Shown here: piece by piece, positions 14,867-62,781 of the stretch
Position numbering within the stretch: position 1 is the stretch's first letter
Layout of the letters: each line of letters starts with the position of its first letter
Assembly: GCF_000143845.1 (NCBI RefSeq)
Contig: NC_014363.1
Span: 1,411,186-1,475,185, forward strand
Source: Olsenella uli DSM 7084
GTDB taxonomy: Bacteria > Actinomycetota > Coriobacteriia > Coriobacteriales > Atopobiaceae
Direction of reading: 5' to 3'
Length of the DNA stretch: 64,000 nucleotides
Program-made: the position numbers and the translations under genes
The notes under the pieces: model-generated
What the model saw: only the letters and a program-made list of their open reading frames with translations
Databases searched by the model: none
Told to the model about the DNA's origin: nothing

Positions 14867-16633
14867 CTACTCCTCGACGATGATGCGCAGCTTCTTCTTG
14901 CCGGACTTGGGAGGTTTCTCAGCCACAGGCCGCGATGGCTGAGAGGCTTGCGATGGTTGCAACATCTGCGCCGAACGAGGCGCTTGTGCTGGACGAACCC
15001 CAGTCTGCGCCGGTCGCATCCCAGCTCCACTTGCAGGACGGGCAACCTGGGGCGGAGTCCCAGCCCCACCCGCAGACGCCACGCTACCGGCAGGGACCGC
15101 GCCGCTCGCAGGTGCCACGCTACCCGAAGGCATGCCCTTGCCGGAGATCCTCACCTTGCCCGAGCGGCTCATCCTGACGCTGACCCCATCGGTACGACCG
15201 CCTGACCGACTCCCAATGCGCCCCCCCGTGAGAGTGGCGATGCGGCCACCCACACGACCGCCAACCCGCGATGCCGCACGCCCATGGAACACGTCCCTGC
15301 GCACGCCAGCCAGGCGGGAACGCAGGCGCTTCCAGCGCACGTGGATGCTGGGGCCCCCATGCGAGCGCAGGCCCAGCAGCGGCACCGCGACCAGGACCGG
15401 CAGGAAGTACTCGACCATGCGCCAGACCACGTATCCCGCCGTGATGGACGACCCGAACATGGGCGCAAAGAGGAACGCGAATCCCCCCTCGGCACCCCCC
15501 GTACCACCCGGCAGCGGTATGGCCGAGGTCAGAAGCTCCAGCATGGAGCCACAGGCCAGGCAGGTGATGAGGTCCGCCGGTTGGCCAAACGCCCGCAGGA
15601 CGAAGTATGGCAGCGCATAGAGGCACCCCAGCTGGATCAGGGTCACGACCAAGGTGGCGATCATCTCGGCAACGTTCTTCGACGCGGCGCGAAAACCCGC
15701 CGAGAAGTCGTTGACCTCGGAATTGACGACCTCGTGCCAATGGTCGTGGCTCTTCTCGGACAGCCAGCCACGCGCACGGAGGAACCTCAGCAGGGCGTTT
15801 CCCACGCGCGTGATGAAGTGCGGCCACAGGCAGACCACCAAGAGGCCTGCCACCTCGACCACCTTGAAGCCAAAGAGCAGGGCTCCCACCAGCACGACGT
15901 TGCCATAGGTATCCAGGAAGTACTGCCAGCGGAAGAGCAGCATGAGCGCGGCGAAGATTCCCTCGCCCGCCTCGTACACGATGAAGCGCGTGTACTGCAG
16001 CGCCCCCGCGCCACCCATGGAGAGTCCCGCGCGGGTCAGGCGGAAGATCTGCGACGGAGCCCCGCCGGCCCCGTTGGGCGTGAGGTTGCCAAAGAAGATG
16101 CCCGATGCCTCGACGCTCATGAGGTCGCGGATGCCCACCGGCGACGTGGGGTCGGATATGACCGCCATCACGTAGGCGCTCACGCCAAAGGCGTAGTAGA
16201 CGACGTAGCACAGCGCTGCCGCGACGACCCATCCACGATCGATTCCGCCCATCGCCGAGAGAAACTCGTCGATCTGGCCCGATATGATCAGGTACGCCGC
16301 GTATGCCACGCCGACGGCAGCCAGGAAGAGCAGGCTCTTGCGGACCGTGCCCATGCTCTCGCGCTCGGCCTCGACCTGGGAGGCGGGCACCGACGCCGAC
16401 GCCGACACCCTGACCGAGACCTTGGCGGTCTTGGGAGACTTCGCGGGTTTCGAGGGTTTCGCAGAATCTGTGGAACCTGCGGCCCCCGTGGGCTGGAGGA
16501 CCCCCGCAGGTCCGGATGGTGGCGTGGTCCCAGAGGCCCGTACGGACCGAGAGGCATTCTCGGACCCAAGGGCACCGGTCCCGGACGAGACGGGTGCGTT
16601 CTTCCTCCCCTTGCTGTCAGCGGACTGGGACAT
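14867..16633 (-). CDS. LPG-synthase/flippase-like (UPF0104, YbhN) membrane protein
   Basis: A 588-residue integral membrane protein of the lysylphosphatidylglycerol synthetase TM-domain (MprF N-terminal, AglD) family. A long N-terminal tail rich in Ser, Pro, Ala and Lys (about 1-95) precedes six to eight helices starting at LLFLAAVGVAYAAYLII. The family motifs FFGNLTPNGAGGAPSQIFRL and SAIPLPGGTGGAEGGFAFLF are present. A low-complexity basic C-terminal tail of some 150 residues (Gly/Arg, then Ala/Pro/Gln) ends in KKKLRIIVEE. There is no lysyltransferase domain, so a lipid transport role is more likely than aminoacylation. AGGAG precedes the ATG; an upstream extension is unsupported. Confidence 0.8.
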   Translation of the reverse strand: MSQSADSKGRKNAPVSSGTGALGSENASRSVRASGTTPPSGPAGVLQPTGAAGSTDSAKPSKPAKSPKTAKVSVRVSASASVPASQVEAERESMGTVRKSLLFLAAVGVAYAAYLIISGQIDEFLSAMGGIDRGWVVAAALCYVVYYAFGVSAYVMAVISDPTSPVGIRDLMSVEASGIFFGNLTPNGAGGAPSQIFRLTRAGLSMGGAGALQYTRFIVYEAGEGIFAALMLLFRWQYFLDTYGNVVLVGALLFGFKVVEVAGLLVVCLWPHFITRVGNALLRFLRARGWLSEKSHDHWHEVVNSEVNDFSAGFRAASKNVAEMIATLVVTLIQLGCLYALPYFVLRAFGQPADLITCLACGSMLELLTSAIPLPGGTGGAEGGFAFLFAPMFGSSITAGYVVWRMVEYFLPVLVAVPLLGLRSHGGPSIHVRWKRLRSRLAGVRRDVFHGRAASRVGGRVGGRIATLTGGRIGSRSGGRTDGVSVRMSRSGKVRISGKGMPSGSVAPASGAVPAGSVASAGGAGTPPQVARPASGAGMRPAQTGVRPAQAPRSAQMLQPSQASQPSRPVAEKPPKSGKKKLRIIVEE

Positions 16634-16794
16634 GCGACTCCTGAGTCGGTGTACATGGCACGTGGCGGCGCGTTCGAAGCACAAGCACCCGGCATGCGAC
16701 GCTCGTGCAGGAGCTCGTCTGCCACACTCAAGCATCATATGTCACGGTGGCCACGTTACGGGCGACACGGCATTCGAGGACTCGAACACCAGAA

Positions 16795-16851
16795 AGACTC
16801 CCGCCGTGGGGAAAGACTCCCGTTGTGGGGAAAGACTCCCGCCGTGAGCGG
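16795..16851. repeat. Tandem repeat, 19 bp x 3
   Basis: The unit AGACTCCCGCCGTGGGGAA starts at 16795, 16814 and 16833. The second and third copies differ at a few positions. Confidence 0.9.
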
Positions 16852-16883: not shown

Positions 16884-16926
16884 CCTCGCGGGGCGGCAGG
16901 GACAACCTCGCCTCGCGGGGCGGCAG
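16884..16926. repeat. Direct repeat, 16 bp x 2
   Basis: CCTCGCGGGGCGGCAG occurs at 16884-16899 and again at 16911-16926, 27 bp apart. Confidence 0.85.
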
Positions 16927-16943
16927 AAGAACCTGACCGCAAG

Positions 16944-17212
16944 GGATGGCAGAGCAACTTTTGTGAGCGAGTCTGAGGAGAGATTCACAATACTTCTTCA
17001 CACGTCCATTTTTCGTAGGCGAATGGATGACAGGAGAAGTTTTGTGAGTCGGATTTGCTCAGCAACTCACAATACCTCCCCTCTCGTCCATAAAACCCCT
17101 AGAGGTCGGATGGCAGGAGAGGTTTTGTGAGTTTCCATCACACAGGGCTCACAATAGTTCCCCAGCCATCCACAGGTCCCGAAAAAAGGGATGCGAGGGA
17201 AACTTCTGTGAT
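16944..17212. repeat. Cluster of palindromic repeats (three full units plus a half)
   Basis: Units lie at 16984-17049, 17065-17132 and 17148-17212, with a right half-unit at 16944-16967. Each is about 65-68 bp: left arm TCACAATA plus a pyrimidine-rich stretch, then an inner CCATCC/GGATG pair, then a purine-rich stretch and right arm TTTTGTGA. In the second unit the outer arms pair over 14 bases with one mismatch. The same family recurs at 62.46-62.73 kb. They resemble REP/BIME or MITE-like elements. Confidence 0.8.
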
Positions 17213-17214
17213 TC

Positions 17215-17317
17215 GCGCTCCTTGTGATCTGCGCTCCTCGCGATCCTTGTGATCTGCGCTCCTCGCGATCCTTGTGATCTGCGCTCCTCGCGATCCGTGC
17301 GATCCGTGCGATCCGTG
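17215..17317. repeat. Tandem repeats: 25-bp unit, then 9-bp unit
   Basis: The 25-bp unit made of GCGCTCCTCGCGATCC plus TTGTGATCT occurs twice in full (17231-17255, 17256-17280), with partial copies on both sides. It runs directly into three copies of the 9-bp unit CGATCCGTG (17291-17317). Units abut without spacers, so this is not a CRISPR array. Confidence 0.85.
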
Positions 17318-17411
17318 CGCTCCGCGCTCCGAAAGGCTCACGGAACTTCGCCGGTCATCCACTGCTGACGCCCACAGACAAATGGCCCGGGCGGGCAGCG
17401 TCGGCATGGGC

Positions 17412-18554
17412 CTACGAGGGCAGTGGACCCTTCTGGATGATGCCACCACCAAGGCAGACGAGCCCATCATAGATGACGGCCGACTGGCCTGGAGCGACGG
17501 CGCGCATGGGCTTTGCCAGGTCGACCGAGACCGTGCCATCCGCGTGGGGCATGACATGTGCCGGACGCAGCTCGCCGGTATGGCGCGTGCGGACCACGTA
17601 GTCGCCCTCCGCAGGTGGGACCCCCGCGATCCAGAGGACGTCGGAAAGCTCGAGACGTCGGCACCACAACGCGGGGCAGGACCGGTCCGCAGTCACGTAG
17701 ACCACGTTGCTCTCGGTGTCCGTGGTGACGACGTAGCGTGCGGGGCCACCACCGAGGTCGAGCCCCTTGCGCTGGCCCACCGTGAAGAGGAAGGCCCCGT
17801 CGTGGCGGCCCAGGACGGTGCCGGTCTCCCACTCCACGATGTCCCCCGGACGACGGTCCAGGACGTCCAGCAGGAAGCTGCGGATGCCGACCTCGCCGAT
17901 GAAGCAGATGCCGTCGGAGTCCGGCTTGCGCTCGACGCCCAGGCCGCGTGCGGCGCACATGCGGCGGACCTCGCCCTTGGAGGGAATGTCGCCCACGGGA
18001 AAGAGCGTGCGGGCGAGGGTCCCGGTCGGCACGCGCCAGAGGAAGTAGGTCTGGTCCTTGTGCTCGTCGGCGGCACGAAAGAGAGTCGCCCTCCGCGATG
18101 GTGCCGGGGCCGACGCTGACGGTGCCGGGGCCGACGCCGATGGCGCCGTTTCCATCGGTGGCGCGACGCCCACGCGGGCATAGTGACCCGTGGCGACGAA
18201 GTCGGCACCCTCGGCGAAGGCGCGCTCGGCGAAGGCACCGAACTTGACGGTCTGGTTGCACATCACGTCCGGATTGGGCGTGTAGCCATGCGCGTAAGCG
18301 TCGACCAGGTAGTCGACCACGGTCTCCTTGTACGTGCGCTCGCAGTCCCACACCTCGAGGTCCAGCCCCAGCGTGACGGCCACGCGCTCCGCATCCGCCA
18401 GGTCATCCGCCCAAGTGCACCTGAATCCCGGCAGGTCGCGCGACCAGTTGCGCATGTAGACGGCCTTCACGTCATGGCCCTGCTCCACGAGGAGCGCAGC
18501 CGCGAGCGCCGAGTCGACGCCGCCGCTCATACCCAGGCACACCCGCTCCCCCAT
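17412..18554 (-). CDS. mnmA: tRNA-specific 2-thiouridylase MnmA
   Basis: Adds sulfur to U34 of tRNAs for Lys, Glu and Gln, using ATP and persulfide sulfur. The PP-loop SGGVDS is at 10-15. Catalytic cysteines are Cys99 (NPDVMCNQTVKF) and Cys217 (DSDGICFIGE). The domain order is complete over 380 residues. A low-complexity insert, PSASAPAPSASAPAPS (about 138-153), follows GHYARV where most homologues have a short link. Its ATG overlaps the stop of the cysteine desulfurase gene (TGATG), so sulfur donor and acceptor are co-translated. Confidence 0.93.
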   Translation of the reverse strand: MGERVCLGMSGGVDSALAAALLVEQGHDVKAVYMRNWSRDLPGFRCTWADDLADAERVAVTLGLDLEVWDCERTYKETVVDYLVDAYAHGYTPNPDVMCNQTVKFGAFAERAFAEGADFVATGHYARVGVAPPMETAPSASAPAPSASAPAPSRRATLFRAADEHKDQTYFLWRVPTGTLARTLFPVGDIPSKGEVRRMCAARGLGVERKPDSDGICFIGEVGIRSFLLDVLDRRPGDIVEWETGTVLGRHDGAFLFTVGQRKGLDLGGGPARYVVTTDTESNVVYVTADRSCPALWCRRLELSDVLWIAGVPPAEGDYVVRTRHTGELRPAHVMPHADGTVSVDLAKPMRAVAPGQSAVIYDGLVCLGGGIIQKGPLPS

Positions 18555-59401: not shown

Positions 59402-61147
59402 ATGGCCGTCGGGATTGGGGCTGTCATGGGGAGCTCGCACGAGAAGGGCGTGGACGTCCTCGTCGTGGGCGCGGGCATCGCGGGCACCACGGCCGCACTC
59501 GCGGCGTCCGCGCAGGGTGCCCGCGTGTGCATGGCAAGTGTGGGGACGACGTTTTCCGGGGCCAGCTTCTATGGGGGCACCTGGGGGCTGGGGCTTGTCG
59601 GCCCAGACGGGGAGGGGGACGAGGACGACCTGGTGGCAACCATCCTGCGCGTGGGCGGCAACGTGGCCGACCCAACGCTCGTGCGCACGCTCGCCCGCGG
59701 CATCGCCCCAGCGGCGGAACGCCTCGAACGGCTGGGCGTCACGCTGCGACGGCCCGCTGCGGGACATGGGGACGAGCAGGCCTACGTGCCTTGCTTCGAT
59801 CACAGACATCGCTGCTGGAGGGGAATCGAGCGTGGGCCCTACCGCGCCTCCGTCGCCCGTGGGCTGCGTGCGGGGGAGGTCACGCTCCTCGAGGGATGCG
59901 AGCTCGTCGACCTAGCCGAGGCCGATGACCACATCTGCGGCGCCGTCCTGTACGATGCGGGGTCGGGACGCTTCCGCACGGTGGCATGTGGCGCCGTCGT
60001 GCTCGCCGCAGGCGGGCTGAGTGGCCTGTACCAGCAGAGGCTCTGTGCGCCCGACGTCACCGGCGCGGTGCACGCCATAGCCCTCAGGCATGGGTGCTCC
60101 CTGGTGAACGTCGAGTTCCTGCAGATGATGCCGACGATTGTCTCGCCTAGGCCAGGAATCGTGTTCAACGAGAAGAGCTTCGGCTACGTGGACGGAAGGT
60201 CGGCCGGCCTGTCGCGGGACCTCCTGGCCGAGCGAGGGCGCTACGGACCGTTCAGCGCCCGCCTGGCCTCGCGCTCTGTTGACTTTGCCATCGCGTCTGC
60301 GGGCAGGCGGGGCATGGAGGTCCGCTACGGGACGCTCCCGGACCGGCTCCCCGAGTTCGTTCGCAGCTATTCCGCCTGGCTGTCCGCACAGGGCGTGGAC
60401 CCCATGGGGCCCCTTCGCATCACGCACTACGCGCACGCCTCGAACGGGGGCATCGCGATTGACGCGCGGGGTCGATGCCGCGGGGGCGCACGGGGCCTCT
60501 TTGCCTGCGGGGAAATGGCAGGGGGCATGCACGGAGCGGACAGGCTGGGAGGGCTCTCGAGTGCCAACTGCCTGGTGTATGGCGAGATCGCGGGAAGGGA
60601 GGCCGCACGCGAGGCGTTGGGGACGTCGTGGGCGAGCAGGGCCTGGCGCCACCCCGACGCACACGCCCCAGGTCGCAAGCTGCCTTCGACGCAGGCGATG
60701 GTCCCTGCGGACGCGGAGGCGATGGAGGGCGAGCTGCGGGACACGATGAGCCGCTGGTGCATGGTGAGGCGCGAGGCCGAGGGGTTGTCACGTGCGCGCA
60801 GGCGGCTGGACGGGCTTGCGGAGAGGGCCACGGCCGGGCTTGTTGGTGCGGGGGGCGCCGCGAGGGCCGCGGATGCGGTCGTGACGGTGGAGGGAACTCT
60901 GACGGCAGGCGTGGGCGAGGTCGCGGGCGCACCCCATGACGTCGCCCGAGCCATGCGCCTCAGGCTGCGGCTGGACTCCGCCCGCGCCATGGTCGCGGCG
61001 ATGTCGGCCAGGCAGGAAAGCCGCGGCGCACACTACCGCAGCGACTCCCCGCACGAGGTTGCCGAACTCGCAACTGCGCATGTGGTAACCCTGGACGCTG
61101 GGGGCAATCCCGAGGTGCGGGCGTCAGGGGAAGACGTGCGGGACTAG
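59402..61147 (+). CDS. FAD-binding flavoprotein, NadB/fumarate-reductase family
   Basis: A 581-residue flavoprotein of the succinate dehydrogenase/fumarate reductase flavoprotein superfamily. FAD-binding VLVVGAGIAGTTAALAA lies near 20-36. The catalytic half shows RITHYAHASNGGIAID and a substrate/FAD segment LFACGEMAGGMHGADRLGG. The C-terminal helical domain (about 430-560) is Ala/Arg-rich. It resembles L-aspartate oxidase or a soluble fumarate/methylacrylate-type reductase; there is no nadA, nadC or iron-sulfur subunit nearby, so the call stays at family level. The ATG at 59426 is an alternative start. It converges with the next gene, sharing 4 bases. Confidence 0.75.
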   Translation: MAVGIGAVMGSSHEKGVDVLVVGAGIAGTTAALAASAQGARVCMASVGTTFSGASFYGGTWGLGLVGPDGEGDEDDLVATILRVGGNVADPTLVRTLARGIAPAAERLERLGVTLRRPAAGHGDEQAYVPCFDHRHRCWRGIERGPYRASVARGLRAGEVTLLEGCELVDLAEADDHICGAVLYDAGSGRFRTVACGAVVLAAGGLSGLYQQRLCAPDVTGAVHAIALRHGCSLVNVEFLQMMPTIVSPRPGIVFNEKSFGYVDGRSAGLSRDLLAERGRYGPFSARLASRSVDFAIASAGRRGMEVRYGTLPDRLPEFVRSYSAWLSAQGVDPMGPLRITHYAHASNGGIAIDARGRCRGGARGLFACGEMAGGMHGADRLGGLSSANCLVYGEIAGREAAREALGTSWASRAWRHPDAHAPGRKLPSTQAMVPADAEAMEGELRDTMSRWCMVRREAEGLSRARRRLDGLAERATAGLVGAGGAARAADAVVTVEGTLTAGVGEVAGAPHDVARAMRLRLRLDSARAMVAAMSARQESRGAHYRSDSPHEVAELATAHVVTLDAGGNPEVRASGEDVRD

Positions 61148-62166
61148 GCGACGGGCGGGGCGGGGCCCAGGCCGGGACTTGGGTCAGGGGGACGCACGGC
61201 GAGCGGCACGCCAGCCCAAGGCGAGGCCACGAGGTCCTTCCAGAGTTCCCGTCGGCAGTCCTCCGTCCTGCCGTCAACGGGGCGCGCACGAAGCCCGAGC
61301 ATATGCCGGACGGCGATGCCCGCCTCACAGGCACGCTGGTAGCTGCTGAACTGCTTCCAGGAGATGCGTTCCTCTCGATAGCCCACGTTGGAGAGCTGTG
61401 TCTGGCGATGCGCGTCATCATCTGACTGAGCCGAGGACTCATGCTGGAGACCATCGCACTCCACCCCGCAACGCTGCCGCGGATAGCATATGTCGATGAC
61501 GCGCGTACGCCGCGCTGGCATACCAGACCCAAAGCCCTCTCCCACGTCGACCGCGACGTTGAACGCCGACTGGCCGGTGCCATAGCCACCGTGCTCCACG
61601 GGAACATGCAGCCAATGGCGCACGAGGGCCTCGAGGGGCGACGCGGCCCCATCGGCGGCGAGGCGGATGGCACGGCGGAGTATGTTGACGCCTCGGGCAC
61701 CGGGGACCTCCTCGCAGAAGGAGGTGACGTCGGCAAGCGTCACGAGGGGTTCTCGACGAACGAACGCCGTCTCGTCCGGGGTGAGTGCAAAGCCACCGCA
61801 AAACTCGTCCGCCAGCAACGCGAGGCGGTTCACTCCCAGGCCACACGCCATCGTCAGCAGACAGAGCTCCGGTGTGGCGACCAGGACGCCCGGGGCATGG
61901 CGATTGAAGGAGCCCTCGGGAAGGGGGACGCAGCATGCATGTTGCACCAGTCGCCTGTCATGACCGTTCCTCCTGCCGGCGGGCGTCAGGATGTGTAGGG
62001 TCTCGTCGCCCTCGAGGCACCTCCTCAGCTGAGGGTCCTCGATCTCACGCCTGTTGGAGGCGATCTCCTCGACGCGAGGGTTGCCTGACGGAGCCGGTCG
62101 CCTGCGCGCCACGCGCATGCGACGGATGCTCCTGAGGGCGGATATGCCTACGATGCAGGTTTCCAT
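61144..62166 (-). CDS. Hypothetical protein with Vsr/DUF559-like nuclease-type C terminus
   Basis: A 340-residue protein. The N-terminal and middle parts (about 1-200) are not recognised but include GVLVATPELCLLTMACGLG, reminiscent of AbiEi-type antitoxin/abortive-infection proteins. The C-terminal part (about 230-310) has VIDICYPRQRCGVECDGLQH, then DDDAHRQTQLSNVGYREERI, resembling the D...ECDG..H...D..R...L pattern of Vsr/DUF559 endonuclease folds. The assignment is by eye. The ATG at 62166 is chosen for the conserved-looking start METCIVGIS; only a weak GGCGG site precedes it. Its upstream flank is packed with repeats. Confidence 0.5.
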   Translation of the reverse strand: METCIVGISALRSIRRMRVARRRPAPSGNPRVEEIASNRREIEDPQLRRCLEGDETLHILTPAGRRNGHDRRLVQHACCVPLPEGSFNRHAPGVLVATPELCLLTMACGLGVNRLALLADEFCGGFALTPDETAFVRREPLVTLADVTSFCEEVPGARGVNILRRAIRLAADGAASPLEALVRHWLHVPVEHGGYGTGQSAFNVAVDVGEGFGSGMPARRTRVIDICYPRQRCGVECDGLQHESSAQSDDDAHRQTQLSNVGYREERISWKQFSSYQRACEAGIAVRHMLGLRARPVDGRTEDCRRELWKDLVASPWAGVPLAVRPPDPSPGLGPAPPVA

Positions 62167-62398
62167 GGGTCTGTTTTCCGCCAAAACAGGTAACGGGTCA
62201 ACGGCTACGGGGACCCTTTCGACAGAACGTCGGCACCACGCAGCAAGTCTGCTGCAAGTAAGCTTGGACAGTGACATCGCTGCAGGTGAGCATAGGGAAG
62301 GGCAGCACGGCACACCGTCAAGGGTCACCAGCCGAAAATCGACGAACGGCAGGGGTCAGCGTGTCGCGCGCATGTGTCCCCAGTTACCCGATGCACAT

Positions 62399-62430
62399 CA
62401 TTAGGCTGCTGGTTCATTAGGCTGCTGGTT
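62399..62430. repeat. Tandem repeat, 16 bp x 2
   Basis: CATTAGGCTGCTGGTT occurs at 62399-62414 and, identically, at 62415-62430. Confidence 0.9.
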
Positions 62431-62464
62431 CACAACAGCTCCTAAGGCTCACAACAGCGCCTAA

Positions 62465-62733
62465 TTCACACTACTTGCTGTGCCGTCCACTTTTGAAGGG
62501 CGGATGGATGGCTAGAGAACTTCTGTGAGTGTCGCGAGGAGGAATTTCACAATAACTCGCCACGCATCCCATCATGTGCGCCAGAACGCACCTCAGAGGA
62601 ACTATTGTGAGCGTACGCCCAAGTCACACTCACAATAGTTCTCCTCCCATCCAGAGGACCCCGAAAAACGGACGCGTGAGCAACTATTGTGAAAACGGAT
62701 GCCGCTAGACTCACAGAAAGTCCCCTGCGATCC
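62465..62733. repeat. Second cluster of palindromic repeats (three units plus a half)
   Basis: Units lie at 62465-62530, 62546-62610 and 62630-62692, with a left half-unit at 62709-62733. The third unit nearly copies the third unit of the 17.1-kb cluster in its core (CCATCCA, AGG, CCCGAAAAA, GCG). Adjacent arms of units two and three form a perfect 13-bp inverted repeat, GAACTATTGTGAG (62599-62611) and CTCACAATAGTTC (62629-62641). Confidence 0.85.
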
Positions 62734-62781
62734 AAGTGAAGCCTGCTGCCATGGCGCGCGTTCATGCGGCCCCACGCGGAC

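Follow-up and report, generated by a model that had tools for sequence, protein, structure and literature searches.

What kind of element is formed by the palindromic repeats that occupy an intergenic space in the chromosome of Olsenella uli DSM 7084? The repeats were noticed in a 64,000-nucleotide stretch of DNA (C1:1411186-1475185, referred to here as the window) from a genome that is a single contig of 2,051,896 bp. The GC content of the window is 0.649, and a value of 64.7% is given for the type strain in the genome report (PMC3035265). The first-pass annotation proposed a repeat family of ~65 bp whose arm positions are conserved as if selected for structure, and named MITEs, RNA hairpins and protein-binding sites as possible identities. 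The element is real, genome-wide and under strong constraint, and its sequence has the appearance of a protein-binding site of array type that has not been described before.

The repeats in question, referred to as cluster A (16943-17211), consist of three 63-64-nt inverted pairs plus one additional arm, in agreement with the three full units and one half unit first recognized. The additional (seventh) arm, which corresponds to the half unit, lies on the minus strand at 16943-16966, scores 32.3 bits against the arm profile and is placed 42 bp ahead of the next arm. Outer pair U1 (16985-17047) is built from a plus arm at 16985-17008 and a minus arm at 17024-17047, set 39 bp apart start-to-start, and its loop opens with TTTTT. 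Middle pair U2 (17067-17130) has its plus arm at 17067-17090 and its minus arm at 17107-17130, with a start-to-start distance of 40 bp. Outer pair U3 (17149-17211) returns to 39 bp (plus arm 17149-17172, minus arm 17188-17211), and its loop is closed by AAAAAA. From the minus arm of U1 to the plus arm of U3 the distance is 125 bp. Inner CCATCC/GGATG arms are present as annotated, and the window contains two instances of the outer-arm pattern TCACAATA-N(30-60)-TTTTGTGA, versus 0.00 expected (100 shuffles). Cluster A is flanked by a LPG-synthase-like gene (14867-16390, minus) and by mnmA (17412-18554, minus). Tandem 25-bp repeats resembling GCTCCTCGCGATCCTTGTGATCT adjoin it at 17213-17330 and are followed by a weak stray arm (17338-17361), while short direct repeats are found on its other side at 16792-16848 (three 19-bp units) and 16884-16926 (two 16-bp units).

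A second copy, cluster B (62466-62734), is located downstream of hisF. Its outer pairs (62466-62528 and 62630-62692) enclose a middle pair (62547-62610) with a start-to-start distance of 40 bp, and the outer-to-outer distance is again 125 bp. The extra arm of cluster B (62711-62734, plus strand, 24.2 bits) lies 42 bp past the last arm, on the side opposite to that of cluster A, so the two elements are oppositely oriented. When the 64-kb window was scanned without reference to the motif, for any 5-mer and its complement occurring three times in step, clusters A and B were recovered and nothing else. Two pairs of short direct repeats adjoin cluster B at 62398-62464, of which the 19-bp pair contains TCACAACA, resembling the first third of an arm. 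The adjoining gene at 61144-62166 bears a weak, nuclease-like resemblance to REase_MTES_1575/DUF559 that falls under the Pfam cut-off.

Further copies exist throughout the genome, so one of the two outcomes that the first-pass annotation took as refuting did not arise. A covariance model built from 18 units identified 27 loci with 72 unit places (143 strand matches, E <= 1), a lower bound, since 150 of 999 candidates were scored by the model. Exactly three units are present at 22 of the 27 loci, with cluster B among the loci, and the other five (at 90.7, 734, 1155, 1307 and 1819 kb) are single, partial or degenerate. The ~65-bp family is thus genuine, but the element itself is larger and stricter, with three pairs over ~230 bp. 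None of the 27 loci overlaps a gene predicted by a simple gene caller, which extends to the whole family the intergenic position first noted for cluster A. An independent arm pattern (<=1 mismatch) matched 156 places in the genome, and the reversed pattern, used as a control, matched 0. Of the matches listed, a solitary arm with one mismatch (G000:C1:467005-467027) is the sole place beyond the 27 loci.

Each arm is 24 bp long and conforms to TCACAnnAnnTCnnCnnnCRTCC, or, in fuller form, TCACA V W A N Y T C N Y C W S N C R T C C R, a consensus based on 166 arm-profile matches of >=10 bits from the window and 23 loci. In 132 core arms, TCACA is retained in 128, T11 in all 132 and TCC in 130. Identity between copies reaches 0.99 at key arm positions and 0.71 over whole arms, whereas linker interiors are 0.33 identical, versus 0.25 expected from linker composition, and the columns that flank the arms have no consensus. 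The arms are not clearly specific to their slot in the element, as identity is 0.69-0.75 within the same slot and 0.68-0.74 across slots. A slight excess of similar linker pairs between some copies (maximum 0.5875 versus a null 95% value of 0.55) points to descent by copying. Copying of the element in the distant past is therefore likely, with arms and spacing retained far beyond it. Within the arm, neighbouring positions are interdependent (17-18 and 16-18, both strongly, and 14-15, in the 161 of 166 arms that score >=20 bits), and positions 16-18 fall into GC, CG, CA and CC classes, as if a few alternative arm types existed.

The arms alternate in orientation, and their spacing follows narrow rules. 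Counting arms of at least 15 bits (which leaves out at least one, at 897544 in locus L035, with 13.5 bits), the distance between the arms of a pair is 39 bp in 56 of 71 units, 40 bp in 12 and 50 bp in 3. Gaps between pairs (n = 67) are 42 bp (29) or 43 bp (32), with 53 bp in three cases and single gaps of 32, 36 and 150 bp; the 36-bp gap comes from a degenerate locus and the 150-bp gap from the weak stray arm next to cluster A. All 44 outer pairs of the 22 intact elements measure 39 bp, and the variation is confined to the middle pair (39 bp in 7, 40 in 12 and 50 in 3). Measured between the inner arms of the first and third pairs, the distance is 125 bp in 15 of these elements and 124 bp in 2, for a total of 17 at 124-125 bp, while the remaining five are one helical turn longer (135 bp in 3, 136 bp in 2). 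Shuffling the three constituent distances among elements would yield a 125-bp sum in 7.1 rather than 15 of the 22 (P 0.0002), and the excess persists when one-turn jumps are excluded (16 elements, P 0.00045). One element combines a middle pair of 50 bp with a neighbouring gap of 32 bp and still sums to 125. It follows that spacing changes by 1 bp or by about one helical turn, and that 1-bp changes are mostly compensated.

The element also has symmetry and direction. A T-tract opens the U1 loop and an A-tract closes the U3 loop in mirror image; the three strongest positions carry 1.4-1.75 bits each. A seventh arm accompanies 16 of the 22 elements and is found on both sides in 2 of those 16. Eight elements combine a 40-bp middle pair with unequal flanking gaps (42 versus 43 or 53 bp) and a single extra arm, and in each of them this arm is found on the longer-gap side; the element is accordingly directional, and both directions occur. 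Some spacers between pairs in L028, L029, L031, L034, L040, L042, L043 and L047 belong to an A/T-rich class with AAA...TTT ends (e.g., AAAGTTTTTCAACTTT), and all three spacers lengthened by 10 bp (L028, L040 and the second cluster of L043) open in this manner. Such spacers may constitute a second protein site.

Outside this genome the element was not recovered. There was no match at E <= 0.01 in 39 relatives (24 of the same family, 15 of the same order but of other families), at 1e-5 in 139 other family genomes, at 1e-8 in 395 other genomes of the class, or at 1e-6 in 395 other genomes of the phylum; these samples overlap, the larger searches were run with stricter filters and scored few candidates in each genome, and the genus is represented by this one genome. 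A motif-free architecture detector, which recovers 14 of the 22 clusters in the element's own genome and makes no further call in 262 kb of own sequence, gave 0 hits when two relatives were scanned over 400 kb each. The exact 64-bp pattern matched a single stretch, from an Asaia MAG, in a wider contig collection that may lack own or very near records, and this match is read as chance. Viral contigs gave 0 matches, and plasmids and phages none. In the literature searched, no description of the element or of an Olsenella intergenic palindromic repeat was found: the one paper retrieved for Olsenella and inverted repeats is, in the portion available, concerned with antiviral systems, and none of six terms sought occurs in PMC3733652. 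As no relative searched carries the element, in-place conservation across species is not demonstrable, and this counts against the explanation preferred below.

REP/RAYT or MITE debris is the usual explanation for intergenic repeats in bacteria, and the rival that survives best is of this kind. The 27 loci would be insertions of a MITE-like, non-autonomous mobile element of ~230-270 bp, five of them decayed, and the arms would be sites for a transposase or accessory protein. Such an element would be dispersed, intergenic and present in both orientations, as observed here; it would be missing from related genera, leave partial or degenerate loci and show some linkers that are slightly too similar between copies. 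Still, a MITE family is expected to be similar over its whole length, and unselected insertions would not display near-invariant key arm positions amid nearly random linkers. The flanks beyond the arms are not conserved. Neither Y1_Tnp nor a rve transposase (Mu/Tn7/IS-type) is matched in the genome, and phage and plasmid records gave no match to the element. The strong conservation of arms amid near-random linkers, together with the lack of a rve match, weakens the MITE reading, of which the dispersed character stands; while past mobility is plausible, mobility as the full explanation is unlikely. Five tyrosine recombinases were matched in the genome, with none inside a cluster locus by coordinates. 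A RAYT-type transposase gene, another possibility raised at the outset, was not found: Y1_Tnp (PF01797) has 0 matches in this genome, the same search being positive in 5 of 14 control genomes, and the REP/RAYT candidate was rejected on that basis.

Alternatively, a transcription factor could control the adjacent genes through the copies, which would be its operator arrays in a regulon of ~22 sites. A conserved motif with helical phasing suits DNA-bound regulators, as do the TGTGA/TCACA half-sites within the arms, which presumably resemble half-sites of the CRP type. Against this stands the genomic context. The 50 genes that neighbour 25 loci (all of the 27 but L037 and L046) share no common function when compared with Pfam, 7 of the 50 being without a family, and comprise such unrelated genes as EF-G, pyruvate kinase, hisF, mnmA, leuS and PTS genes, among others; the regulon reading was rejected for want of a common theme, and with no function common to the neighbours the role of the element is not visible from context. 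Gene orientation around the 22 intact elements is codirectional in 12, convergent in 7 and divergent in 3, and in 11 of the 12 codirectional gaps the element is closer to the 3' end of one gene than to the 5' end of the next (P 0.006), although strand assignments are partly uncertain, as the neighbour calls L031 315-3854 and L026 4607-8101 of the simple gene caller look like antisense artefacts. With copies at gene ends and between convergent genes, control of adjacent genes is quite improbable.

The weakest rival, that of RNA or single-stranded DNA hairpins (REP/REPIN-like, or serving in mRNA stability or termination), has in its favor that complementary arms can fold, as cluster A does (301 nt, -124.1 kcal/mol, z -7.4), and that the element sits 3' of genes, but it is very improbable, as the shared arm motif alone would yield as stable a fold and loop-length steps of 10-11 bp are meaningless for a single-stranded loop. 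Arms of the same unit are no better matched than arms with shuffled partners (16.61 of 24 positions identical versus 16.74 +/- 0.20; 71 units, P 0.76; top-strand pairing P 0.42), and RNAalifold found double changes in 0 of 8 pairs among 18 aligned units, so covariation across copies within the genome is absent. Folding energies of 66 real units (-22.9 and -23.2 kcal/mol for the two strands) equal those obtained with re-dealt arms (-23.0 and -23.2 kcal/mol). No terminator-like site beyond chance was found in cluster A, and a Rfam scan of the window returned tRNAs only. The hairpin reading was therefore rejected, and of the proposed selection for structure, the conservation of arm positions held while conservation of pairing did not. 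The element is not a member of the structured-RNA families or of REP/REPIN.

Sequence that is conserved without covariation, arms that alternate at intervals of about four helical turns and spacing that changes in one-turn steps argue for a rigid, one-protein assembly on duplex DNA, as do the fixed outer-to-outer distance and the mirror-placed T and A tracts. Of the identities first suggested, protein-binding sites are thus the one favored by the rigid spacing and the jumps of one helical turn. Cluster A is probably a representative of a dyad-symmetric element of double-stranded DNA that is dispersed over the genome and serves as an arm array for one protein and a single nucleoprotein complex. 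Each 24-bp arm would be a putative binding site for one sequence-specific protein, and with three inverted pairs, to which a seventh arm is often added, six or seven molecules of the protein would be held at fixed distances from one another and on fixed helical faces. The proteins might then assemble into a single wrapped or bridged complex of ~230 bp. Wrapping as such is without support of its own, as A/T periodicity near 10.25 bp was not above chance. Searches for Y1_Tnp, rve and ParB_N yielded no candidate for the binding protein; the one ParB_N protein of the genome is encoded near coordinate 1.

As for purpose, the absence of a regulon, the placement at 3' ends and a scattered distribution along the chromosome would make a structural role such as bridging, insulation or anchoring the likeliest. 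It is possible, if tentative, that a host function maintains the element at its loci; local chromosome organisation, or the insulation of one transcription unit from the next, would be the most likely such function. A lineage-specific chromosome organiser, in which an undescribed protein on ~22 scattered triple-pair sites, in six or seven phased copies each, tethers, bridges or insulates at gene ends, is a rather doubtful extension. The part of the chromosome opposite parB, by which alone (C1:930) the origin was placed, falls within the longest stretch free of intact copies (476 kb), whose length is not significant (P 0.085). About 70 NBSs are reported for Noc of B. subtilis, none of them at the terminus (PMC4331003). 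The wider interest of the family is that it behaves as neither REP/RAYT nor MITE debris and has, at some two dozen loci, the hallmarks of a rigid multi-protein assembly on DNA. If this is true, one DNA fragment could be used to isolate a site-specific chromosome protein that is new, and direct predictions of its structure would follow from the spacing rules.

Several known systems share parts of this architecture. REPs, BIMEs and REPINs are likewise intergenic and dispersed, with inverted units in regular alternating order. The BIMEs of E. coli are described as binding proteins, e.g., IHF and gyrase (PMC2817692), and compensatory changes are described as common in REPINs (PMC3116915). In contrast, the present element has no Y1 transposase, no hairpin arms or compensatory change, and a three-pair architecture with a fixed outer distance. 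MITE-like small repeats such as ERIC/RU and BOX are intergenic and partly palindromic, 100-300 bp long and present in tens of copies, as here. Members of such a family have sequence in common from end to end, whereas copies of the present element have only the 24-bp arms and their spacing in common. The res site of the Tn3 family provides an architectural parallel, with three successive inverted-repeat subsites at defined spacing that build a synaptic complex; its arms are ~12 bp, however, and it occurs once per transposon. To our knowledge, the triple-pair architecture matches no known bacterial nucleoid or partition site. The Noc NBS of B. subtilis and the SlmA SBS of E. coli, bound by a ParB-like and a TetR-like protein, respectively, nonetheless resemble the element in being tens of palindromic sites spread over one chromosome, with protein binding known there and presumed here. 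Those sites are short, single palindromes, whereas each site of the present element is an array of six to eight arms.
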